A DNA stretch of 64,000 nt from Gelatoporia subvermispora B (Eukaryota > Basidiomycota > Agaricomycetes > Polyporales > Gelatoporiaceae), in the NCBI GenBank assembly GCA_000320605.2, contig KB445794.1, positions 124,001-188,000 of the forward strand, given 5' to 3'. How positions within the stretch are numbered: the stretch's first letter is position 1; every line of letters starts with the position of its first letter. Below, one piece after another: positions 6,160 through 23,237 of this stretch. The notes under the pieces were generated by a model. The model saw nothing but the letters and a program-made list of their open reading frames with translations, searched no databases and was not told where the DNA came from. Position numbers and translations under genes: made by a program.

Positions 6160-9100
6160 ATGCAGTCCCCTTCTGGTGAGTCTTTCAGCCCTTTGAATAT
6201 GCGCAAGGCTCACGCAAACTGGACTCCATAGCGAAATTGGGCGAGAAGATGGCTCTGCCCGGTGTTGTTGAAGATGCGGCTACTGTGGATGCTATCCTGT
6301 CGGTCGCCAAGGGTGTACTAGCGGGACTCGATCCAATCCTCGGTGCTGCGCCAATCCCTGGGATTGACATTGCCGCGAAGTCTCTCTCACACCTGATTGA
6401 CATGTTGCAAGTTCGTAGTTTTGTAGCACTTCGAGAAGGCCTCAGGACTGACCTGACCGCTTGGTCCCACAGGAAACCAAGGAGAACGATGAGACGGCCA
6501 AGGCGCTCGCTCGAAAACTGCAGAACTTTGCGGTCGTCATAGAACAAGCAAGGAGCGAAGTTCAAGCGAAGGTAGACGCCATGAATATTGGAAGTTCGAG
6601 CGATGGGGTGTCTGAGGCTGCGAAAGAAGACCCTCAGTTGGCGGATTTGCTGGATAATATTGGAGATCTAGCTAAGTACGTCAACGACTTCGCTGCCTAG
6701 AGTTCCTTGGACATACATTTAATTCACAGAGCGCTGTCGAAACTCGAGGAAACGGCACAAGAACTCCAGAACTCTCCCTACATGTTCCGGTGTATCAAAC
6801 ACGCTGGGAACGCAAAGGTGCTCTTGCGGTTGCACGACGGCATTGGTGAAGCCACGTGGGTCTGGCAGGCAAGCATCCATCGTGACTTGGTTACATGTAT
6901 CTAAAACACGGCCTTGTAGTTCCGTAGCAGCGTGAAGCGTGATCTGAAAATGGCCGCGGTCGCAACCGATGTAGGGGTGAGTGCTGTGGCCTTCGGGTCC
7001 GAGGATGCCTCAGTAACCTTGAGCATGACTTAGGCCATTCGAAATACACAAGATACACAAGGTTCGTGTTACCGCCATATATACGGAACTTGTGATCACC
7101 GACTTCCCGGATGCGCTCAGAGGTGAAGCAACTCTTGGAGCAGCTGAACCCAGTGCGCGCCCATTTCCGCACACACCCTCTTTGGGACAGGGGAATTCTT
7201 CAAGAAGAGACACAGCAGCAACTTGTCGCGAAACTTGCGCAGTGGGCAGACGGCCAGATCCTTGAGTTGAGAGAGCGGCGCTTTTGCGTCTTGACCGGTC
7301 CTCCGAGATCTGGCAAGTCGACTATTGCGCTCGAAGTGATCGACCGCCTGGAGAAGAGGCAGTTACTCGGCGCCAGCTTCTTCTTCAACCACGCAGATGA
7401 CTCTAGGCGTGTGACAAAACACGTCTTCCCCACGATTGTTAGCCAACTCACGCGAACACATCAAGATCTGCGACAGTCCCTGATCAATGGCGTCATGGAG
7501 CATATCGACCTAGATCTCGGCGATAACGACCGTATGGATCTCCAGGCGAAGAATTGTCTCGAGCGGCCCCTCAAGGAGATCCCGGAGACCCACAAGCCGG
7601 TCATTATTGTGTTCGACGCAGTCGACATCTGTACCGACCCTCCGGAGACCATTGCAACCATGTTCCGCCTTCTTCTGCGTATATCAAAGTCCGCCAAGTT
7701 TCCACTCCGATTCCTGGTGACCACTACACCTGACACTCGGGTGACCAACGTACTCGACGAAGTCGGCTTCCGCGATCACGTCTGGAAGGAGGAAATGCCT
7801 GCTCTCCCTCGTATCATAACCATTGCCAATGTTGTTCGCACCCTCAAGAACGACGCTGGCCAAGCGAACGGCCAGGCGATGCGAAAGTCCTTCCCACAAT
7901 ATCCCTCCGAAGAGCAGGTTGAGTCGGACGAGAACGCCGTTTGCCACGCTCAGCTGGCCAGTATGTGCCTCAACATCCTGATGGAAGACGGCGCATTGCG
8001 TCGCAACCCATGCGATCTCCCAGAACCTGCTCGGTATGGTCTTGAAGCAAAGTCCAGTGCTTCCTCCCTACACATCGATGACCATATCCCAGCGGATGTG
8101 GAATATGCCAGTGTGCTTTGGACGACTCACATCCAGAAGGCTAGTGGCGATCCCGCCACGATCGAGGCGCTTGAGGAGTTCTGCTTGGGGAAGAAGAAGA
8201 TTCTTAGCTGGTTGGAGATGCTGGGATACCTGGACCAGCTTGACGTTGCACTGCGCACTTTGCACGGCGTGCGTCTTTGGTATGAGGTATGATTCTGCTA
8301 TACAGCATCATGTTATGATGTTAACTGAAACATATGTTTAGAAGAATGCTACCGAGGAGACGCAAACTTCGCAAATTTTGCACGATGTGCACCGTATCGC
8401 TCTCGAGTTCAACGACGTCATCAGCATCTGTCCGGAACAATTGTACATCTCCGCCTGGCCGCAGATTCCTGCTTGCGCGCTAGTCGAGCAGTATACCCTT
8501 TCTCCCGGTACCGCGACCATGACGGTATTGACACCGAGAGACGCTCAATGGAGCCCCTTCCTGTTCGATATTCAGACTCTGCGGGGCAGACTAGTTGGAG
8601 TGAAGGTTGATCCGGACGGGCGTTACATCGCATCCTGCGCCCTATATGGGCAGATCGATATATGGGACGCTATCTCTGGAGCACGACTTCTCACAGTCAC
8701 GAATAAATCCGGTGCCGACTCATTCGACATCTCATGGAAGGATCAATGCATTGTCACTTGTCGTGAAGGTGGTCGCGAAATTTTCATCCATGACGACACT
8801 GTGCCTGTTCAACCTACGCCTTTGAGCGAGGATGGATGCCGATTCAGCTCTGTCGCCTTCTCTCGAGACGGACACGTGTATTCCCCCATCTTGGAGGAGA
8901 ACCGTGTTCTCGTCTGGGACGTCAGTAGCCACTCCTTGGTCAGGACAGTCACATGTGAGGATGTCGTGTCTACTTCTATCGACTTTGCAGTCGACGGTCT
9001 ACGCGCCGTGTCGGGATCCGCGTGTGATGTCCGAGTCTGGGAGGTCGAGAGTGGCTCCACAGTAGCTCTGCTCCAAGGACACGCCGATCAAGTCATGTCC

Positions 9101-11419
9101 GCTGTGTTTCTCCTCGACGGCGACAAAGTAGCCTCCGCTGGTCGCGACAATTTCGTTCGTATCTGGAACGTCGAGGAGCAGACAGCTATCCACGAGTTAC
9201 AGCACCCGACCACCGTTTCGCAAGTTGTGGTCTCTCCGAAAGGCGATGTGGTTGCATCGGTGTCGGACATCATTCGATTATGGAGCTCCGAAACAGGCGA
9301 AGTGCTTGCAACGCTCTCTGCAAACTCCTCTCCCGTCACTTCGGTTTGTTTCTCGATGAGCGGCTTGAGGCTCATTTCGACCTCATGGGATGGCGCTGTC
9401 CACGTATGGGATATGACGAGTATACAGCAAAGCTTGGACGACATGCCGGGCCATCAGTCCTCAGTGACTTGCTTGGCATATTCCAAAGATGGGACATTGG
9501 TTGCTTCGGGAGGAGCAGATAGGCGCATTATCATCTGGGACGCACTCACTGGAGAGCACAAACAGACCTTGGAGGGCCACGATTCTGGAATTCTCAACAT
9601 AGTGTTTTCCCCAGACGGGGAGAGACTGATCTCGGTTGCGAATCAAGACCATTGTCGAGTTTGGGATTTGTCTTCCGGCAGAATGATAACGTCTATCACC
9701 CACAAAGATGCCTATCTTGCCGCGTTTTCAGAAGATAGCCAGTGGATCGTGACCGGCAGACGCTCTCTGCAGTCGTCGACCTCAGCGGCAGATAGAGAAT
9801 CCGCGCACAGTGATATACGCCTATTCAAAGCTTCTGACGGACAAATCGAGAAGGATTTCACCTTTCCCCTCAATGTTGGGAACCTCGAATTAGAGTCACT
9901 GGAATTCTCTCCTAACGTCACCCACATCTATGCCGTTTGTGGCTCTACTGCTATGTACGGCATCGATATAGCCACCGGTCGTGTTGCTCCAATTCCTGAG
10001 AAACAGCGACCGAAGGTTTCTCGCGATAAAGTGGTTGCCTCTCCGCAACATGGTTGGATCACCTTACCCTCAGCTGACAAGCGCAGAGTTCCCGTGTGTT
10101 GGTTGCAGCGCTCCAGGAGGCCTGCCACGCATATTTTCGGGGAGGGCGAAGAAGTCTGCATGTCACGGGGGCACCATCTGGGAATCGGCTCTGACTCGGG
10201 TAGAGTGACACTTTTGGACCTCTCTAACCTCTCCTTGCCAGAACCTCCTCCTCCTGCGAGACGGAAGACGATTGACTTCCGTTCGCCGCGCGATTTCCAA
10301 GCAGCTCTGGGATTGGCCGCGAAAGCCGCTGGCAAGGCAGCTGTCAACCTGACCAAATCGAGGCCTTCATTTGCAGACAACTCCATCGCTGACACCCTGC
10401 CGGACGTCGGAAATGCATTGGCCGCTGCCGGATCCGCTCTGTCTGAGCTCAAATCTACACCTCTCTTCGGAGGGTTGGACGACGCGGTGTATAGACTCGT
10501 CAGCCTCACACAAATATTGCAGGTGAGAGACATCTAGATGAATAGCGCGTCTCGAAACAGATTTGCTCACCCGTACTAGGTGACCAGAGGCAAGGAGGAC
10601 TTCAAGAGGGAGCTGGTGCAGAAGATAGAAGAGCTTATCGACTCTGTCAAACAGTCGAAGGCTGAGATTGAGAACATCACGGCATCACATAATGGAGAAC
10701 TCATTCTCAAGAAGTCCAGCCCCCTAATCTCATTGCTTGACGCTGCGGAGGACCTGGCCGAGTACGTATCGTTGCCATCGTTGTGCAATTTTGTTATTGA
10801 TACTGATTGGACCTGCCAGTATGCTTTACCTTTTCGCCCAGCTTCAAGGTATCGAGCAAGTCGAAGCAAAGAACCTATATCTTCGCTTCAAACAGAAGGC
10901 TCAAGGTCGCAAGACAGATGTAATTTTCACGGTGAAAGATGGGATCGAGGATGCTTACGATGCAATGGCTCATTTGATGGTACAGTGCTCTTACTGCATG
11001 GAGGTTAATGCGCCGGCTTATTGGAGTTCAGTCACGAGGTAGGGTTAAGGTCACTAAGCTCATATCTGAAGTTGGGTCCGCCTCCAGTCGTATTTCGGCA
11101 TCGGTGAAGGTGAGGTGCTAGTTAGTTGATATTCCTTAATTGACTATCTATGGCAATGTATCCAGCAAATTGAGGAGCAAATCACTGAAGGTGAGCAGCA
11201 TGTCTTCTATGTCCCGTGAAAACGGAACAGTTATACGGACGTCATTCTGCAGACGATGCACGCCGCCTGCAACGGCAGCGAGGTGTGGCGCAATCTCGAT
11301 CCAATTTCGACCTCGGCAAGGACGACAATCGCAACAAGGAGCGTTTGAAGCTCCTTCAGGAGCTGAGTGATTTGGTCGAAGGTGTCAGAGTAATTGGAAG
11401 TGGTGCATCTGTGTATTAG
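6160..11419 (+). CDS. NACHT-WD40 STAND protein A with helical modules at both ends
   Basis: Thirteen exons: 6160-6175, 6232-6410, 6473-6675, 6730-6868, 6920-6976, 7034-7061, 7121-8286, 8342-10522, 10580-10761, 10820-10979, 11032-11109, 11166-11190 and 11253-11419; phases agree and give 1526 residues. Residues 1-205 form a helical adaptor module (DMLQ, then FRCIKHAGNAK and DGIGEA), like the MLKL/HeLo-type N-termini of many basidiomycete NLR-like proteins. The NACHT ATPase covers about 215-470, with Walker A GPPRSGKST near 266 and Walker B VIIVFDAVD near 367. About ten WD40-like units follow (roughly 660-1080), with GHxxxV and VWD/IWD signatures. A C-terminal helical module of about 250 residues ends the protein (PLFGGLDDAV, KDGIEDAY). 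This architecture suits a nucleotide-switched innate-immunity or self/non-self sensor; ligand and output are unknown. The exon 4/5 intron uses a GC donor (CAG|GCAAGC). Exon 6 (28 bp) is the least certain and was placed by comparison with gene B. Confidence 0.85.
6869..6919 (+). other. GC-AG intron in NACHT gene A
   Basis: A 51 bp intron starts GCAAGC and ends TTGTAG. It lies at the position where the inverted paralogue has a normal GTGAGC donor after the same WQ codons. Both flanking exons have the same lengths as in the paralogue (139 and 57 bp), which supports the site. Confidence 0.75.
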
Positions 11420-12103
11420 TCGAAAGCCCAGAAGAATGTAATCCAGCCAAGACGCCGCTCTTTTCTGCAGTGTAAAACCGTCTGGTATTGGGTACTTAGT
11501 TGATCGTTCAAAGTTGCCTTCGGAATTGTCATTTGTCATGCATTGATTTACTTCCTATGCTATCCCTTCGCCTCCCGTCACATGGCGACTGCATGAAGTC
11601 GTACTATGTTTACAAGAGAATTACAGTCAGATGTCCAGTGTTAAAGTTACACATCGGAGGTACGCTACCAGTTACGACTAGTGGTGTATTCTCCACCGCC
11701 GGACACTGGCACAGTGGTAATTGAGGAAATAGTCACTAACAAAAGTAAATGAGGAGACAACGCAATCCACACTGAATCTGCTCATTGACCGACGCACAGC
11801 AATCGTCACCATGCTGTAATTGCGATAAATTTGCAGGGCTCAGTGAAGCACGTAACTTGAGTCCTCTGGAAGTCCATGAACAGAACGCTCGTGCAGATAT
11901 TCCAGAATAAGGCCAAGCGCGAGCCTTCTCGTCTCCGTGCCCACGCATTCATGTAGGATCTTACCAAAAGCTACGTCTCTGTGTGCTCTGGTACGTAAAT
12001 GTGCAAGCTGACTGCCTGAAGAGGGCACGGTGGACTGTGCAGACCTGTGAGTGATTACGGAACATAGTACATGTATTAATTACTATACCACACTCAGCTG
12101 GGA
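11420..12103. other. intergenic downstream of NACHT gene A
   Basis: About 680 bp without a supportable gene. It is likely the 3' flank of gene A together with decayed sequence ahead of the partial copy that follows. Short open frames on both strands (for example 11736-11948 -) show no recognisable domain. Confidence 0.4.
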
Positions 12104-12888
12104 GTGCATGTACACCTTCACCCGCCTTCTGGCTTGGCATCGAGTGTCGATATAGCAGCAGGACTATGCGACACTACCGAGGCGGCCATGGCTGTGATCA
12201 CCACAGCAGCAACAGTGGCGAAATTGACATCCGCATTTTCCGACGTAGAACGCGCTCTAGCTGCCGTTGGATCATCGCCCTCTGAGTTGAGATCACGCCG
12301 ACTTTTCGGTGGCCTGGACCAGGCCATCTATGCACTGTGGACGCTCAGCGACATCCTCCGGGTGAGCGAATGTGGAACTGGAGCATATCGCGATATTCGA
12401 ACTGACTGTTTGCATTGCACAGACAACGGATGGAACTTAAGCGTGCGTTGATCAAGAAGATTGAGGAATTGTGCACGATTATCTGCCAGTCCAAGGCCGA
12501 ATTTGAGAACGTGGCTGCACTACCGTCGATCACTACCGTCATCTTTCGATGTTCTACATTCTGTTTTCTGACCACGACCTATGGTATGTTAGAACTGTAT
12601 GCGACACTTCAAGAAATCCACCAGCCTGAAATGAAGCATTTCATCAAAAGATCGATGCATCGTTATTCACACGATAAACACTGATCATTTTATGTGTCTC
12701 TAGACGAGCTGCGCCGTTTGCAGTGCCAGCCTGGTATCATGAAACTGCAAGATGGCGTTGTCCGCTCACAGATATATTTCGCCCGCGGCAAGGATGCGTC
12801 CCGGGATCAAAAGAGGCTGCGCCTCCTTCAGCAGTCATCCCACATGGCTGAAGACGTTGATGTCGAGTCGGATACATCATGGACGTAG
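12104..12888 (+). pseudogene. partial copy of the NACHT-WD40 C-terminal module
   Basis: This matches only the 3' end of genes A and B. Positions 12189-12360 give an equivalent of the end of their exon 8 (LFGGLDQAIYALWTLSDIL), followed by a GTGAGC donor. Positions 12430-12650 resemble exons 9 and 10 (KRALIKKIEEL, MLELYATLQEI) but run together as one open frame with the intron between them missing. Positions 12704-12888 resemble exon 13 (DELRRLQCQPG, RLRLLQQSSHM). The splice from the first block to the second is out of frame by one base, and exons 11-12 are not found. NACHT and WD40 parts are absent. The best reading is a decayed fragment; a small standalone gene for the helical module is possible if an unusual splice is used. 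Confidence 0.65.
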
Positions 12889-13357
12889 CCGCAACGTGTG
12901 ATGTCATAAGGTTCTCGGCATGCATGCAGACATGAGTGTTCTCCAATTCCAGTACGGGTTTTCTCCCGTTAGCCGGTGATGTTGAGTGGCGAGCAGATGA
13001 GGTTCTCGCGTTTCAAGGCATGGCTCGTGTATGTTGTGCAGCTTAGGCATGTTGGAATACGAAGTTATGAACCTCTGCCATGAATTCCAACTATATTCTT
13101 AGGATGCGGATCTAACCCACTCAATCACGCCACTGTTGCATCTTCGAGCGAGTGATCAGAAAGACACGCACCGACATTGCATTCACTGTAGGTGTGGTTT
13201 GACATAGAAAGATTGGTGAGGTCAGCGTAAAAGGAGGCCTCCTTCAAACCACACAGAGAGAGTGGACTGTGGCGCAATTCTAATAGAATAAATATACAGT
13301 TACCCAACATGCCTCCCGGACTAATCCAATTACATCCCAAACACACCACTCCTGCCC

Positions 13358-14321
13358 TCACACCCCGTTCGCACCCTCCTGTGCACGCCTCCACTCCGCT
13401 AGCATCTCTACGCTGATCATCTTCAACCCCCATGCGTCCGCGAACGCGCGGCACGCGTCGCGGCGCATCATCCCGCCGTCGACGTCCTCCACCAGCTCAC
13501 ACAGCACACCCGCGGGCGGGAGGTGCGCCGCGGCGCACAGGTCGAGCGCGGCCTCGGTGTGCCCACGTCGTGTGAGGATGCCACCGGATCGAGCGCGCAG
13601 CGGGACGACGTGCCCCGGGCGCGAGAAGTGCGAGGGATGGGAGGAGGGAGAGGCGAGCGCGCGCACGGTGTGTGAGCGGTCGTGCGCGGAGATGCCGGTG
13701 GTTGTACCTGTCAGTATCCAGGTGAGTGACCGGGAAAGAGCGAAAAAAGGTTTCCGAGCGAGATGATACACAGGGAGTCGACAGAGGGATAGAAGGCGAG
13801 AAGGCTTACCATGTCGGTAGTCAACTGTGACGGTGTATGCAGTCCGGTGCGGATCCTGGTTTTCTGCGACCATCATCGGAATCTCGAGTTCATCTAGGCG
13901 TTCTCCTGGTAGTGAAACACAAATGAAGCCGCTGCAGGATGACAAGTAGGGACGCTCAGAACGAGTCATTCAAGAAGGGGCGCCACACTCACCTCGTATG
14001 GCGGACCATGAATGCCATCTTTTCTGCAGAGCACTCGCTCGCAGCAATGATCAGGTCACCTTCATTCTCCCTACTCTCATCGTCCATGACGACCAGGAAC
14101 TCGCCGCGCTCGAACGCAGCGATCGCATCCTCGAGGGGGTCGAAGGTGAACGCCGTGCGCGGTGTAGGCTGCGAGACGATTCTCGGAGCTCTCGGATCTT
14201 TCAGGGCGGGTAGCGGTGCTGGTGGTGGGGCATTAAGCACAGCCTGTTGAGGCGGTTTCGTAGCAAGCATCGTTCCGAAGGTGCTACAGATGGAAGACGC
14301 CGTTTCGGGGACAGGAGCCAT
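13358..14321 (-). CDS. RIB3: 3,4-dihydroxy-2-butanone 4-phosphate synthase
   Basis: Three exons, 14321-13993, 13931-13810 and 13707-13358, are joined in phases 2 and 1 and give 266 residues. The enzyme converts ribulose 5-phosphate to formate and 3,4-dihydroxy-2-butanone 4-phosphate, the four-carbon unit of the riboflavin xylene ring. Family motifs are clear: the acidic loop [55 protein letters not shown] and the C-terminal [13 protein letters not shown]. The catalytic core is about 205 residues; the first ~60 residues (Pro/Ala-rich) are an extension beyond the usual length. It starts opposite to the phosphate carrier, with about 1.6 kb between the two starts. Confidence 0.95.
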
Positions 14322-15933
14322 GTCGCTTGCGGTGGAAGAGATCCGAGAGGAAATTGGGTGCTATCAGCGAGAGTGTGGAGGAGAAAGTGTTATGTGGCAC
14401 CGCAGCGTCCGATGATATAGGAAAGAAAGTCACGCTGGGGTGCTGAGCGAGCGGCGGCTTGGATGACAGATGAGAATGTAGGGACGGACGAGGAGGGTCG
14501 GAGACGGGATTAGGCGGGTACGCTGCAGGCGCCCGGCGACCTGCCCGAGAGATCGCATTGTTTCGTTCAATGGGGAACTCACAGAAATCACACAATGTTT
14601 CCTGAAGATACAACTTGAGTTGCGAAAGAAGGACGATGAGACAGACGAGAATATCTCGAAAGACGTGGTCATCTTAGGTCGTTTACGGAATATCTGCGGA
14701 CAACAGACGCGGTGGTCTTCGGACTGAGTCGGAGGATAGGACCCCAGCGACTCATATGAGGTAAGGGCTTGCTACTCATCTCGCTCAGACGTGAAGCCAG
14801 GGATGTGCGATGGACTGATGACACCGGGGGGTCAAGGCGTGTGAACTCGTTTTCAACAGAACTTGACATCGATTTGTTAAGCAGGCATCGTAGAGAATAT
14901 CAAAACCAAGGATTTGACCGCTTCAGGCTTGCGGAAGTGGAAGATGTATCTCCTGCTAGACATCTGCCGAATTTCGGGGTCCGAGGTCAAGCACAACCCT
15001 GCGTGAAGCTGCCGTCGGATGCACACCAGACAACTGCGTGTGCGAGCGTCATGAGGCGGCATGACTTCGGAGTGGGCACTGGGCGCACAAGGTCTTGCAT
15101 ATGGAACTGGAACCCACGTTTCGTAGATTTTTGTTTCGTCTGGACAGATATTGAGGTGGCTGCGGGCTCCTGCGTCCCCTTCATCCTGCTCAAGAGGTTC
15201 TATCACCGTAATGCACATGTTCAATTTCATCGAAGTATGCAAGTAGGCTCTGAAAATATATGTTATTCTGGTGCTGCTACTTTACCAATGTCTCGCACTT
15301 GAAATCTCGACATGATGTCACCAGCGACTCGGGAGTTCTGCAAGGTCTCTGGCCTTGTAAAGAGCGCAAGAAATGCACCAGAATCGTTGGAAGGCATTTG
15401 GTCACCTATTGATGGTGTTCTGAGTCCGACTGCTGTGCTCTGCAGCCTTCATCCTATGTAATACTAATTGGTTCACATCTTGCTGCTGGAACGGAAAGCG
15501 GTGACTGGATCATACTACCATTTCAGGCAATATTCGCCCAGACCGAACAATCTGCGATTCGTGCATTCATGTTTCAATTGCAAGTCTCTATCAAGGGAGG
15601 CAAAGTGAGCGTGTTGATGAAATGATGACGCAGTATATTCCGAGGCAGAGGTGAGAGTCCATGGCCAGAGGAAGCCGTGCGCACATTACCCGCGATTATG
15701 ACATAAACTTCCAAAGATGGCAAATCTCGGTAGTAAAGTCGGGCACCCGGTGTGCTGGGAGCTGTGGCGGTGTCGTGGGTCTCGGGAGGACTCGGCTTGC
15801 CGGGCGAACGCGCCCAATATTTTTGAAGGGCAGGAGGCAGTCGCGACTCTGCTCATCACCATCCCCAACGTCCTCTAGACCCAGGACCTCCGTCCCAACC
15901 TAGACTCCTCCACCCTAGGTTCAACTAATCCAG
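14322..15933. promoter_or_regulatory. divergent intergenic region RIB3 / phosphate carrier
   Basis: About 1.6 kb separates two housekeeping genes transcribed apart, so it must hold both promoters. Pyrimidine-rich and CCAAT-like stretches occur just before the carrier start (about 15850-15930). Open frames inside (such as 14769-15302 +) show no domain and no conserved splicing and are not called as genes. Confidence 0.4.
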
Positions 15934-17206
15934 ATGGCACACCTCTCACCTTCCGGCAAGTGGGATGCACGGTGAGCAACAATTCTCGCCATCGTCCCTG
16001 CCAGCGAGCTCACCGCGCCCACCAGGTATCTCGGCCCCGTTCCCCACGATGCCTCCTACTACGCCAAGTGCATGCTCGGCGGTGCCCTCGCGTGCGGTGT
16101 CACCCACGCAGGTATCACCCCGCTCGATGTCACCAAGTGCAACATGCAGGTACGCTGCCAGCGCACACGTTATCGCCGCGCGCCGTGCTCACCCCCGCGC
16201 GTAGGTGAACTCGGCCAAGTACAAGGGTCTCATCCAGGGCCTCAAGACCATCGCCTCGGAGGAGGGCAGCCGTGGTCTCTGGAAGGGCTTCGGCCCGACG
16301 TTCGTCGGCTACTCGCTGCAGGGCATGTTCAAGTACGGTCTCTACGAGCCGTTCAAGGACCTCTACCAGAACCTCGCCGGCGAGGAGGCGTCCACGAAGT
16401 ACAAGGGCGCGATCTGGCTGGCTGGTTCTGCCTCGGCTGAAATTTTCGCTGACATCGCCCTCTGCCCCCTCGAGATGACCAAGGTCAAGATTCAGACGTC
16501 CCCCGCCGGTACCTTCCCCGTCCCTATGATGGCTGCGCTCTCCGAGATGCAGAAGCTCAAGGCTGAGACCCGCTTCCCCTTCGGCTCGCTCGTCCCTCTC
16601 TGGTCCCGTCAGGTGCGTACGCCGCTCGCTATCGGGAAAATTATCATTCTCTGTGTTCTCGATTTTGGTCACTTCTCCCAGAAGTGGAGAAGGTGGTTAA
16701 AGTAGAGAATTACAAAGAGTGACGTTGTCCTGATGCATTCTTCCGACGAAACGCCACACGAATACTGACACACGCGCAGATCCCGTACACCATGGCCAAG
16801 TTCTTCTTCTTCGAGTCCATCGTCCAGCTCTTCTACAGCAAGGTCTTCACCGCGCCGAAAGACTCGTACTCCGAGGTCACCCAGCTCGGCATCACCTTCG
16901 CATCCGGTTACATCGCCGGTGTCGTCTGCGCCGTCGTCTCACACCCCGCCGATTCGCTCGTTTCGCTCATGGGCAAGCCCTCGAACCGCGGTAAGAGCCT
17001 CGGTACGATTGCTTCTGAGGTTGGCATCGTCTCGCTCGCGACCAAGGGTCTTGGCACGCGTGTCATCATGATTGGTACCCTTACCGGTACGTGTTTTCGT
17101 CCTAGCGTGTCCCTACGCATCGCTGACGCCCCTCACAGGCTTCCAGTGGTGGATCTACGACTCGTTCAAGACCGCCATGGGCATGGGCACCACTGGTGGC
17201 AAGTAA
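15934..17206 (+). CDS. MIR1: mitochondrial phosphate carrier
   Basis: Five exons, 15934-15971, 16026-16149, 16205-16612, 16780-17086 and 17139-17206, have all phases consistent and give 314 residues, the usual carrier length. It imports phosphate with protons (or in exchange for hydroxide) across the inner mitochondrial membrane for ATP synthesis. Three carrier repeats are visible by their signatures: [10 protein letters not shown] near residue 43, [10 protein letters not shown] near 142 and [10 protein letters not shown] near 244. Phosphate-carrier features are [41 protein letters not shown] and FQWWIYD near the end. Codon use is strongly C/G-ending, as in a highly expressed gene. Confidence 0.95.
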
Positions 17207-18004
17207 ACGTGCTCACCATCCAAAGTTAGCACATATGCCCCTCTTCTACTCCCGAGCCGTTGTCTAACCTCGTGCCAGTAGATGTGACTGCACGGTGGGT
17301 GCAGGTGTACTCCATCATGTTGTCGTATTATGTTGTCCTGTCACGTCCCGTACACTATTTTACACGCCTGGAAATAGAAATTCACGGACATACCCATCTC
17401 GCATGTGCGTCGCGGAGCCAATGGGCGCCCGTTTGAAGCCCGGTACTCCGCCTGTCATTCAAGGTGCTGTGCACGTTCGACGCGTTATGGTGATGTTTTC
17501 AACGGATGCGCTGGCAGTGAGGCTGCTCAGGGATACTGCTGCTCGACCCATGCATGGACGCACTGGCACTAGGACCGCGATCTTTCCAGGATATGCATGC
17601 GAACGCTTTGCTCGCATACTCTCTGAGGTCAAACTCAAAGGGAGTCTATTGCGGCTTGAGCATGAATACGATTGCAGCTTGCCCACTGTGAGCTCAGGGA
17701 TTGATGAGCAGATGTCATCGATCATCTCTCGCTCAATCTGCAGCGACGTTGATCCTGCATGCCCGCAGAAGCCGTCGCAAGCCGACAGCCCGTGCTATGG
17801 AAATCCCAAGATACGGAATTCGGAGAACTCGCTTACTGTACAAATGAATAGGGCGATCTCAATATCCCTTCATACCTCTTCGCGTCCGCCGCATCCCCTC
17901 GCCCCTGGACGATTCATAACTTGCCGAAAGCATGGGAATATTGTATAGTGATGAAGCGACCTCAGACTTCCTTTTTACAGCTGCTACATCCGCGATGATG
18001 GGCA
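17207..18004. other. intergenic between convergent genes
   Basis: About 800 bp separate the phosphate carrier 3' end and the 3' end of NACHT gene B. A 217-codon open frame (17295-17948 +) spans most of it, but it has no domain, no hydrophobic pattern and no splice support, so I treat it as chance. Confidence 0.4.
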
Positions 18005-21000
18005 TCACAATTCCTTGTTCACGGTGATCCCTTCGGCCAGGTCGACCAGTGTCTGGAGTAACTGAAGCCGCTCCTTGTCGCGAGCGCTGTTCCTGCCGCG
18101 ATCAAAGTAAATTCGTGGTTGTGCCACACCGCCCTGGCTCATGTCAACGCCGCGCTGGCGTTGCAGACGAAGTGATCCCTCTAGTACCACGGACTAAATC
18201 AATGATACTCCGTGATATGGCGACCGTGAGGAGCTGACCTTGAGTAATCTGGTCTTCGAGTTGCTGACAGGAATGTGCCTTGAATTAAGAATCGGAGTAT
18301 TGGCGATGAATTACTGACCTTGACCACGGCCAGTATTCGATCGGATGCAATAGACACCTCCGAGATCAGTTTGGCAAGCTTGACCCTTCCACGCGACTAT
18401 ACGCTGCGTCTCAACATTGCGTTTCTTTCGATCGGCAGAGTGAAATGACTTACAACGATGTAAGCGACTGCTCCATAAGCATCTTCAAGGCTATCTTTGA
18501 CAGCGAACATGACGTCTGTCTTGCGCGACCGAGCCTTCTGTTTGAATCGCACATAGAATCGCTTCGCATCGACTTGTTCGATCTCTTGGAGGGTAGCGAA
18601 TAATTCTAGCATGCTGCAAGACGAGTATATGGATCAATCACTCGAACATCAGCCAAGACTACGTACTCAGCAAGGTCGTCGATCACCTCCAGCAGCGTCA
18701 TAAGTGGACTGGACCGTTTGAGAATGACGGTGCCGAATGACGCGTTATCGATGCTTCCGATCGCGGTTCTAGACTGTGAGATATTCTCATATAATTCCTC
18801 GATCTTGCGGACAAGTTCGCGCTTCAAATCTTCTTTCCCTTGAGTGACCTGTCATACCCGAAATGTGGATCCTGCGATTGGAGCTACATATTCACTCTGC
18901 TCACTCACCTGCAGAATGTCGGTCAATGAACATAGAGAATATATAGCATGCTCCAGTCCGCCGAACATTGGGATGGATTTGAGCTCGGATAGAGAGGCGC
19001 CTACTGCAGCTAGAGCTTGACCCACGTCTGGAAGAGTGTCGGCGATTGAATCCTCGCCACTGGCTGTACTCTTATTTTTTGCTATGACGGCTATCTCGAG
19101 GAGTGAGCGCGTCTTCTTTAATTTGTCAGGAACGGGAGACCTAGACGTGGGATCTGTTGGGAGTAGTTCCGAAAGATCTAGCAACGTGACTCTGCCAGTG
19201 GCAGAGCCTGTCGCGAATTTCAGACCAGTCGAAGCGGATACATCACCGTCGTGTCCAACTATGGAGCCTCGAGCCGCAGGCCTTCTGGACTTCTGTAACC
19301 AGCACACAGGGTCCATCTGCTTCTTCGGTCCCGGCAGGGTAACCCAGCCGTAGTGAGGAGAGGCGGTAAATTTGCTAGATATAACGTTCGGCACTTGCCT
19401 CTCGGGCACCAATACAGCCAATCCGGTCTCCGTCTTGATGTTGCAGGAGTAAACGGCGCCTGAGGTGCAGGTCACGTAGATCTGACTGAAAGGATCTGTC
19501 TCGGCGTTGGCGTGGGGCGGGTGGAACTCTAATGTCTGTATCGTAATGTTCCCGACGTTACTAGGGAGATTAAAGTCCATATGGAACCCCCCATCGGCTG
19601 CGTTGAACAGGCGTATGTCGCTATGCCATATATCAAGTCTGTCGACAGGATAAGACTTCTGGAGCGAGCGTCTGCTGGTTGCAATCCATCGACCGTCCGG
19701 AGAAAACGCAGCAAGATGTGCGTCACGGTGAGTCAAGGACATGAGCATGCTCCCGGTATCGAGGTCCCAGATCCGAGAATGGTCCTGAGATGCAGTTGAG
19801 ACGAGTCGTTTATTATCGTGAGAGAATGAGAGGTGAAGGATTTCTGAACCGTGCCCTTCTAATATTTGCATACTAGCACCTGCGTCCGCATCCCATACAA
19901 CGATCTGCTTGTCTATAGATCCAGATGCCACGAGTACGCCATCATGCGAGTAGGCTAGGCAAGTGACGGCAGACTTGTGACCATGAGGCGGCTCCGTCTT
20001 CGATGTCATAGTCATCGCGTCCCACACCCGAATAGTTCCATCCCATGAACTAGAGACGAGGCGCAGGCCATTCATCGCAAAGCATATGGATGTCACAGGG
20101 GAGTTGTGGTTCTTCAGGATTCGAAGTAATTCGCGCGATCTCGGATTCCAGATGCGGACTGCATCAGAGACAGATGCGACGACGTCTCCTTTTGGTGAGA
20201 CGACGACTTGAGTGACACTGTCCGGATGCTCCAGGATACGTTCGTTGTCGGAGTTTTGTATGTCCCAGATCCGAACGCGTCGATCCCGACCGCCTGAGGC
20301 GACCTTGGTCGCGCATGGGAAGAAAACTGTAGAGAGTACACTGTCCGTGTGCCCCTTGAATTGGTGCAGTATCCTTCCCTTCTCGAAGTCCCATACACAC
20401 ACATCGTCTTGTGAACCTGACACTGCGGTATTTCCACCGATCGCGAAGTCGATGACCGTTGAGACCGGTCGTTCATATTCAATTGTTGTAATAACCCTGC
20501 GAGCTTCGGCGTCCCAGACGAGAACTTTGCGACTATCCAGAGCTGGGGAGAATATGCGGCCGTCGCGGGAGAAAGCAACAGAACTGAAACGTGTATTTTC
20601 CCAGGTCAGCGGTGGCGACGACTGCTGCTCGTCATCTTGCTGTTTGCTTTGATCGTATAGATAGATGTCTTTGCCGCCTTCACAGCACGCTACAACGCGC
20701 TGGTCCTTCCAAGATACATCAAAGAAGTCCGCGCCAGATATGTTGGTCAACCGTAGAAGATTGACACCCGAGATGGCATCCCACAGATCGATCTGTCCGT
20801 GGAGCGCACATGATGCAATATGACGGCCATTTGGGTTGACTTTGATTCCAACGATCCTACCTCGAAGTGTCTGGATATCAAACAGAAAAGAGGCCCAGCG
20901 AGCGTCCCTAGGTGTCGCGAGCTTCATTGCTCTGCCGTCTGGGGTGCGGTAACGTTCTACCAGAGGACATAAAGGAATTTGGGGCCATGCCGAGATGTAC

Positions 21001-23237
21001 AGTTGCTCCGGGCAAATACTGATGACATCGTTGAACTCGAGTGCCAAGCGATGAAGATCGTGCAGAATTTGTGCAGCAGGCTTGTCTGGGGTAGTGTTAC
21101 GCTGAGTCAGGTCAATTATACAATTCAAAGCGATGAAAAACGATTGAACTCACCTCATACCACAAACGCACATCGTGGAGAGTACGTAATGCAACAGTGA
21201 CCTGGTCGAGATATGCCAACAATTCCAGCCAAACTATCAACTTCTCCTTCTCTACGCAAAATTGCTCCAATGTCTCGATGATGGAGGTATCGACTTTGGC
21301 TCTTTGGATGTGCGTCGTCCAAGCAACACATGCATACTCCACATGCAGGGGTATGTGCTCGCCGATACGGGAAGGGGAAATGTGGGCACTGGGGTCAAGG
21401 CCATACTTGGAGGGATCCGTCAATCTAAGCGGGTTTCGCTGCAACGCTTTATCTTCCATCAAAATTGTCAGGCAAAGATTTGCTAGACGATTGTGATATG
21501 TTGCATTACTGTCGTTGCTGACGTCGGGGATGTGAAGCGTAAACAGAGGAAACTGTTGCGTAGTTTGTCCATTTCTACGCAAGCGGGTATCGTCTTTGAG
21601 CTGATACAGGAAGTTGGCAACATCGACGATCTTGGGAAGGGAAGCAAGCTTCTCCTCCCAAACGAAATCGCGAGAATCGGCGGAATCCACGATACTCTGG
21701 ATATGTCTACCAGGCCTCGATGTCACGACTAACCGCAGAGGGAACTTCACTGATCGCGCGACTCCGAGGAGCAGCTGGAGCATCTTCGAGATCGTGTCTG
21801 GAGGGTCCGTACAGACGTCCAAGGCATCCAGCAGCAGAACGATGGGCCGCTGATTCTCCGACACCTTTCGAAGAGGAGTCTCCATATAGTCCCGCGCTTG
21901 ATCGTCCAGTCGTTCGTTGTTACCCAGATCCTGAGCGAAGTGCTCGCTGAGGTCATCGATCAGGATGTTTCGCAGATCGTTGCGACTGGCGAGCTGAGCA
22001 ACAATAGTAGGGATGACATGCTTTACTACGTGTTTGTTGCCATCAGCAGAGCCGAAGAAAAAGCTGGCACCGAGCAGTCCCTTTTCAAGCAAAGAGTGGC
22101 AAAGCTGCAAAGCGATGCTCGTCTTCCCCGTCTCCTTAGGGCCAGAAAGAACGCATATGAACTTGTTGTTGAGTTCCTGATCTCCTCCCTCTGCCCAGCG
22201 GGCCATCCGCCTCAGAAGCTGTTGCTGCGAATCTTCGGGGAGGAAATGCTTATCCCTGTCAGGATGCGCGCGGAAGTGGGCGCGCACGGGTTGTAATTTG
22301 CCCAGGAGCAGGGTTCGTGCTACCGATACAAAGCAAATGTTTTCTGGTAAGCATGGGCAGCAAAATTATCGCAGCATGCACCGACCTTGAACGTCTTGGT
22401 GATCTCTAATAGCCTAGGTATATACAGTAGGATTTCTTGAGTCGATTGTTCAACAAACAGATATCGCGCTCACTCACCCCAACCTCGACTTGGACAGCGG
22501 CAAGCTGCACCCCTTGATTGACGCTACTACGGAGCTACATACTAGGTGAGACATGTATGTGTTGACGACGGTTCATCTGAGGCTCACCTGCCAGTTCCAC
22601 CTGGCTTCGACCAAATCGTCGTTGAGTTTCAAAATAACCTTCGCATTGCCGACATGCTTCCAGCAGCGGAAGAGGAAAAAGGGACTTTGAAGTTTCATTG
22701 CCTGGTCCTCCAGTTTTGCCAGGTCCCTATAACCTATGAGAAAGTGACATCTGTGGCGAACGTATAGTGAGGACGCACCTCCCGAGCTCCGTGATGTTCT
22801 CGCGTAAATTTGCCAGAGATGGGTCTTCATTGCCCATATTTGATTGTGCCTTCTTCAAGTCTTCCGCAGCTTTCCCCGTGATCTGAGCGAACTTCCATAG
22901 CTTCTTCGCAAGTAATTTCGTAGCCTCATCGTTATCCGCTGTTTGCTGAACGACACTGGGGTCAGCTAACCAATATCGTCTGTATCTGGAAACTCACCAA
23001 TACCATGTCGATGACATTCGACAGGGACTTTGTTACTCCAGGCAAGCCAGGAGCAACGGAAAGTATGGGTTCGACCGCATCGATAACGGTTTTGGCTGCC
23101 GATAAAATGCTCGTGACCGTGCTAGGGCCCTCATAGCTATCTTCCGCCTCTGTTTTGTCGTCAAGTCCCGCTAGCACATGAGCTGGTTAGAAGCGTGGCG
23201 AAAGTCAGTTTGAGTGCTCACAGGATGGGCTGTGCAT
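18005..23237 (-). CDS. NACHT-WD40 STAND protein B, inverted paralogue of A
   Basis: Thirteen exons: 23237-23222, 23182-22998, 22945-22779, 22726-22588, 22534-22478, 22403-22382, 22319-21154, 21101-18909, 18848-18667, 18613-18454, 18396-18319, 18263-18239 and 18180-18005. Phases agree and give 1521 residues. Module order equals protein A: a helical N-terminus (FRCWKHVGNAK), a NACHT domain with Walker A GPKETGKTS near 254 and Walker B IVLLLDALDVC near 350, about ten WD40-like units (GHTDSVLSTVF, GHKSAVTCLAY, GHGSEILHLSF) and the C-terminal module (PMFGGLEHAIYSL, KTDVMFAVKDSLEDAY, LQRQRGVDM). Eight exons have exactly the same length as in A (16, 139, 57, 1166, 182, 160, 78 and 25 bp). Likely an immune-type or allorecognition switch protein; partner unknown. 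The reading frame appears intact. Confidence 0.87.

Follow-up and report, generated by a model that had tools for sequence, protein, structure and literature searches.

The NOD-like receptors (NLRs) of fungi have been described as tripartite proteins, with an effector domain in front, a NACHT or NB-ARC switch and sensor repeats at the back (PMC4986451, PMC12258605); in the published model, the repeats serve both to repress and to sense, oligomerisation takes place through the switch, and the N-terminal domains come together to signal (PMC12258605). The present analysis concerns a 64,000-nucleotide stretch of Gelatoporia subvermispora B (assembly GCA_000320605.2, contig KB445794.1, positions 124,001 to 188,000), called the window below, with its positions counted from 1. 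Two genes of the window, here A and B, very probably encode NLR-like receptors in which a second bundle of the N-terminal type stands behind the WD40 repeats, as judged by their predicted architecture and by a duplication within it. The front bundle is called the N-module and the rear one the C-module.

Several described systems come close to this layout. Proteins of the HET-E type share the NACHT domain with C-terminal WD40 repeats, but they begin with a HET domain and are tripartite; the text consulted mentions no additional domain at the C-terminus (PMC4986451). The BaMLKL N-termini of fungal NLRs, members of the HeLo/Goodbye/MLKL_NTD superfamily, are likewise N-terminal helical bundles – with an extra helix ahead of the four-helix core and MLKL-like profile hits around threshold, as here – but that account concerns N-termini (PMC9815663), whereas in A, B and a protein of Obba rivulosa the homologous bundle also lies behind the WD40 region. 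Extra C-terminal domains (PKinase, SPRY or zinc-finger) are known from the NLRs of Sordariales, and PKinase even stands behind the full tripartite order, yet it derives from a CHK-2 gene (PMC12258605), unlike the extra domain discussed here, which is a copy of an NLR front module. Human NLRP1, finally, is a NACHT receptor that carries signalling domains at both termini, of which the C-terminal CARD, and not the N-terminal PYD, actively recruits ASC; it differs in its leucine-rich repeats and self-cleaving FIIND (PMC7483925). A first-pass annotation of the window, made from the sequence alone, had known of no described protein with such a layout. For MLKL/HeLo-type bundles this stands uncontradicted, no description of one behind WD40 repeats having been found in the literature searched, a set with most subscription papers outside its scope; for signalling domains at both ends it does not, given the PYD in front and the CARD behind in NLRP1 (PMC7483925).

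All three proteins compared, those of genes A and B and P0002 of Obba rivulosa, run from the N-module through NACHT and WD40 to the C-module. P0002 is the closest relative of gene A found (71% identity over the full length, against 53% for gene B). Because the layout is common to Gelatoporia and Obba, both genera of the Gelatoporiaceae, it probably predates the divergence of the two. In gene A, a match of 81.5 bits to PF24883 (cut-off 24.8) points to a P-loop NTPase of the NACHT/NPHP3_N type, and WD40 matches (PF00400) in five stretches point to a repeat superstructure behind the switch; about 13 blade-end motifs, counted by eye, suggest that this region probably forms two propellers. (The Pfam scan used a splice model that lacked six C-terminal residues, and these matches come from the best 25 of its 63 rows.)

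On sequence comparison, the N- and C-modules are homologous copies of one module, and there is hardly any doubt about the duplication. In hhalign, the three N-modules and the three C-modules align collinearly (E 4.3e-5). With the N-modules of other NACHT genes and of P0004 added, a 33-row N family (31 rows used) aligns with the C-modules at E 2.9e-5 over 155 columns, and a 34-row family reaching to the P-loop (32 used) at E 4.4e-6 and probability 87 over 216 columns. This profile–profile comparison, which the first-pass annotation had proposed, placed the two ends above reversed and shuffled controls: reversal of the C profile lowered the score from 39.4 to 20.4, and none of 400 column or block shuffles reached the real score in either run (39.4 in the first, best shuffle 35.3; 46.1 in the second, against the 34-row profile, best shuffle 35.5). 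Other segments of these proteins (NACHT, linker and WD40) scored 9.5–11.1, and among 176 windows from 44 other proteins, the sole score above 24 was P0004's N-module. In a set of 47 proteins, a hidden Markov model (HMM) of N-modules alone found the C-module as a second domain in three of three proteins (domain E 2.5e-4 to 8.7e-3), and one of C-modules alone found the N-module in two of three (E 3.9e-8 and 2e-5). That two unrelated helical bundles should be alike by chance could be argued from the all-helical nature of both modules and from their divergence (21–25% identity in the hhalign alignments), but these profile controls, together with the intron coincidence described below, make it so improbable that we give it next to no weight. 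The short motifs by which the likeness had first been noticed read IDMLQ...RCIKHAGNAK...DGIGEA (N) and TQILQ...KQKAQGRKTD...DGIEDA (C) in gene A; their 'DGI' element fails in gene B, which has DDLVEA and DSLEDA, respectively.

Three results weigh against this homology. The C HMM did not match gene B's own N-module, either in the 47-protein set or among the 40 rows listed for a later scan; without the N-modules of A, B and Obba, the probability of the N–C alignment drops to 28 (E 6e-4); and the tail, that is, the last 50-odd residues of the C-module, scores 12.8 against the pre-NACHT linker, a value matched by 2 of 100 column shuffles and 20 of 100 seven-column shuffles. A copy that also took in the pre-NACHT linker is possible, tail and linker being collinear over 45 residues in gene A, but the tail on its own did no better than shuffles. 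When the genomic C-module sequences were spliced-aligned against the profile of the N family, A scored 24.3 and B 27.0, slightly over the nulls (16.9 and 17.1 for the reversed sequences of A and B, up to 23.1 for other loci); the first intron came out at an identical profile position and in an identical phase, and the alignment did not recover the later parts.

The introns add a second line of evidence. The first-pass annotation had noted introns of phases 0, 2 and 0 in the same order in both modules, and the match extends further: the series is 0,2,0,0,1 in both modules of gene A and of gene B, the exons between these introns measuring 203/139/57/28 nt in the N-module of gene A and 182/160/78/25 nt in its C-module. 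When the modules are superposed by the 34-row hhalign alignment, which is blind to introns, the intron offsets are 0,0,0,+7,0 residues, all in phase, with four of five on the same codon. MAFFT gives 0,-6,0,+7,0, as does the alignment without the N-modules of A, B and Obba, and the three-by-three alignment, which ends before intron 3, gives 0,0,+3,+10,+9. Random placement of five introns on the C-module never matched this closeness and phasing in 200,000 trials, nor in the 300,000 of a rerun for each of the four offset sets. The shared positions and phases imply that a segment of genomic DNA was copied with its introns, so the domain was gained through genomic DNA and not through reverse transcription – one route, then, of domain gain in NLRs. 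To our knowledge, no such intron-by-intron copy from the N- to the C-terminus is known for NLRP1.

The N-module of gene A falls in the domain family that commonly forms the front of these NLR-like proteins, an assignment that sequence comparison supports and in which the effector role is presumed: it is present in 30 of the 31 NACHT loci tested in the genome, and also in P0004. A's NACHT region yields 97 match rows in the genome, or 86 places besides A and B after removal of second pieces and the three weakest rows. A purpose-written spliced-alignment program, which recovers the known introns of genes A and B, was applied to 30 NACHT loci and their short flanking sequences, among them the 28 that best match that region. 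With an alignment built on four sequences, 21 of the 30 passed in the first round; in later rounds, when the profile included the rows found earlier, 29 loci passed and L037 matched partly, and in L066 the N-module was not found by spliced alignment. Of the 31 loci, 26 have an intron exactly at profile position 48 (phase 0), 29 at position 111 (phase 2) and 25 at position 158 (phase 0), and the full 0,2,0,0,1 series occurs in ten, the later short exons being less sure. Genes A and B are absent from the genome's 79 matches to the NACHT profile PF05729, so this generic profile misses them; 37 of the 79 lie on contig C7, and A and B are the sole rows on contig C4 in the genome search with A's NACHT region.

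The C-module is far more narrowly distributed. Single-sequence genome queries with the C-modules of A and B each returned 13 rows, all inside the window and all belonging to A, B or a decayed relic of a third C-module. Eight paralogues, covered over about 9 kb each, contained no C-module; the one score clearly over the null among them (26.6 bits, in L062) fell inside that locus's own N-module. In protein searches, P0001–P0003, the proteins of A, Obba and B, alone were recovered with the C-module, among 7,992 scored candidates, and with the N-module, of 3,723 candidates, though P0004, found through its NACHT domain, has an N-module; since that one was missed, the protein search overlooks distant relatives, and C-modules may exist in other fungi. 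The stand-alone relic at 12140-12882 might suggest that the C-module is a separate downstream gene wrongly joined by annotation, but this is very improbable: the WD40 repeats and the first C-module helices share a single open exon in both A (8342-10522) and B (21101-18909), and the same order recurs in the Obba protein. By tblastn score, the relic is nearer to the C-modules of gene B and Obba than to that of A.

No domain is better conserved between A and B than the C-module, which is therefore probably functional. The two genes are saturated at synonymous sites (pS, the proportion of synonymous differences, is 0.78-0.85 in the large domains), and identity and pN, its nonsynonymous counterpart, were used in place of dN/dS. 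A and B are 65% identical in the C-module without its tail, 55% in the tail, 48% in the N-module, 47% in the pre-linker and NACHT, 55% in the linker, 54% in the WD40 region and 29% in the hinge; a useless tail would hardly be expected among the best kept parts. The comparison of A with Obba tells the other way, the N-module (78%) being better kept there than the C-module (74%; tail 64%, WD40 72%, NACHT 66%). These figures also bear on whether the C-module could be an integrated decoy, a bait copy of the N-terminal bundle targeted by a pathogen or non-self factor. Its position behind the sensor would suit that role, much as the C-terminal PKinase behind the full tripartite architecture of Sordariales NLRs has been proposed to be a decoy (PMC12258605), but the domain shows no mark of fast change, being the most conserved one between A and B, and we consider a decoy quite improbable.

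As to the source of the copy, sequence likeness favours the gene's own N-module over that of a sister gene. In the tree, the C-modules are placed next to the A, B and Obba N-modules, with support of 84/59 and long branches meeting, and the C HMM gives its top N-module scores to A (29.4 bits) and Obba (18.5 bits), the next being 13.4. The earlier proposal of a module duplicated within the gene is supported in part: it holds for a duplicate with introns and with NACHT and WD40 between the copies, while the own gene as source (tree support 84/59) and an adaptor or membrane-active role for either bundle are tentative. Differing branching counts against the proposed duplication: the N rows group as (A,Obba),B (92/79) and the C rows as (Obba,B),A (97/79). 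Rooting on a very long branch may account for the disagreement, because A and Obba are closest by identity in both modules. A head-to-tail fusion with a neighbouring sister NLR gene, joining the upstream WD40 end to a downstream front cut before the P-loop, is a possibility we take seriously without calling it probable. It would accommodate the limited tree support and long branches, the end of the C-module about where a P-loop would start, and the relic as evidence of local copies arising here; moreover, the C-module has 78 nt between its introns 3 and 4, the exon length also modelled in the paralogues L047, L036 and L033 (where the next short exons are doubtful), and not the 57 nt of A's N-module. 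Set against such a fusion are the first ranks of A's and Obba's own N-modules with the C HMM, the lack of any NACHT or WD40 remnant by tblastn around the relic (11421-13300), downstream of gene A, and the non-significant likeness of the last exon, taken alone, to the pre-NACHT linker.

In fold, both modules lean towards the MLKL, HeLo, Cbl-N and plant coiled-coil (CC) bundles, going by sub-threshold Pfam hits and poor models. Against PF22215 (MLKL_N, curated cut-off 27 bits), one of four N-module sequences appears among the matches listed (gene A, 10.8 bits, E 0.36), the best of ten paralogue N-modules reaches 21.9 bits (E 1.3e-4), and two of three C-modules are among the matches listed (Obba, 20.0 bits, E 5e-4; gene B, 12.3 bits, E 0.12). 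Several results speak against this leaning: every match lies under the cut-off, the best included; the C-module of gene A has no MLKL_N match among those listed; other helical families score like MLKL_N on these modules; the AlphaFold2 models are weak (mean predicted local distance difference test score 59.6 for the N-module, from four sequences, and 41.2 for the C-module, from three); and Foldseek with the N-module model gave no match at E under 0.001. Profile searches of the PDB returned weak rows only, the best being pelota for C (E 0.028) and HY5 for N (E 0.036). Were the resemblance real, the C-module might be a second membrane-active executioner, and its copied first helices are indeed hydrophobic on average (grand average of hydropathy, GRAVY, 0.47 and 0.72); however, the resemblance is sub-threshold, the first helix is internal, preceded by a 49-residue hinge, and helix hG is less hydrophobic in C than in N (GRAVY 0.47 vs 1.08), so that we think this role unlikely. 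Elsewhere in the genome, one of the two best matches to MLKL_N (G000:C19:75704-76030, minus strand; 24.3 bits, under the cut-off, positions 20-128) lies in a 492-residue open frame, possibly a stand-alone MLKL-like partner.

We propose that an NLR-like receptor – helical bundle, NACHT switch and WD40 sensor – gained a second copy of an N-terminal MLKL/HeLo-type bundle in frame behind the WD40 region, the copy taking along the brace helices and all five introns. The N bundle would be the ordinary output domain, freed on NACHT oligomerisation. The first helix of the C bundle is no longer a free N-terminus for classical pore insertion, and this bundle would most likely serve as a homotypic docking or clamp module, either keeping the N bundle (or that of a partner) in its resting state or recruiting a partner bundle after WD40 sensing, like the C-terminal CARD of NLRP1 (PYD and CARD are both death folds); docking or clamping as its main role is put forward tentatively. 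Rather more doubtful is a receptor with its own inhibitor or partner, in which the C bundle would pair with the N output bundle, be it that of its own molecule or that of the next one, and WD40 sensing would break or make the contact; if true, it would mean an NLR controlled by a copy of its effector that it carries within itself. A front module that also stands behind the sensor in two genera departs from the tripartite description of fungal NLRs, and makes it testable whether an MLKL/HeLo-type bundle can act from the C-terminus and communicate with its own N-terminal copy.

Coordinates of genes A and B, their parts and the relic, given as positions in the window
Feature	Position	Strand	Remarks
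Gene A (CERSUDRAFT_112472 + 11 residues)	6160..11419	+	13 exons, 1526 aa; splice model; the protein ends in P0001
Gene A N-module, aa 1-207	6160..7061	+	exons 1-6
Gene A N-module introns	6411-6472 (phase 0), 6676-6729 (phase 2), 6869-6919 (phase 0, GC-AG), 6977-7033 (phase 0), 7062-7120 (phase 1)	+	
Gene A exon 7: pre-NACHT linker, NACHT/NPHP3_N domain, helical linker	7121..8286	+	PF24883, E 1e-22
Gene A Walker A GPPRSGKST	7297-7323	+	P-loop seen in the sequence
Gene A WD40 propeller region, aa 666-1220	8549..10211	+	PF00400, E 1.3e-39
Gene A hinge, aa 1221-1269	10214..10360	+	A–B identity 29%; exon common to WD40 and C-module start
Gene A C-module with tail, aa 1270-1526	10361..11419	+	
Gene A C-module introns	10523-10579 (phase 0), 10762-10819 (phase 2), 10980-11031 (phase 0), 11110-11165 (phase 0), 11191-11252 (phase 1)	+	
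Decayed relic of third C-module	12140..12882	+	in-frame stop; middle part lost or unrecognisable
Gene B (CERSUDRAFT_92799, P0003)	18005..23237	-	architecture and intron phases of both modules as in gene A
Gene B C-module	18005..19049	-	

Gene A was spliced manually on the plus strand, and the span that the first-pass annotation had assigned to it proved correct. The public model CERSUDRAFT_112472 starts at an inner Met, 11 residues downstream of the start used here; the latter, with a first exon of 16 nt (MQSPS; start region 6160-6231), resembles the protein ends of Obba (MESPP) and gene B (MHSPS). The third N-module intron of gene A has a GC-AG donor, where gene B has GT at the equivalent site. 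For gene B, the scripted exon 2 is four residues longer than in P0003, and the P0003 version was preferred. Two open reading frames sit between the genes, one at about 13360-14500 on the minus strand and one at about 15880-17230 on the plus strand; by their text they look like a DHBP synthase of the riboflavin pathway and a mitochondrial carrier. The window contains 724 N in all, with runs at about 28.1-28.6 kb and 42.0-42.4 kb.

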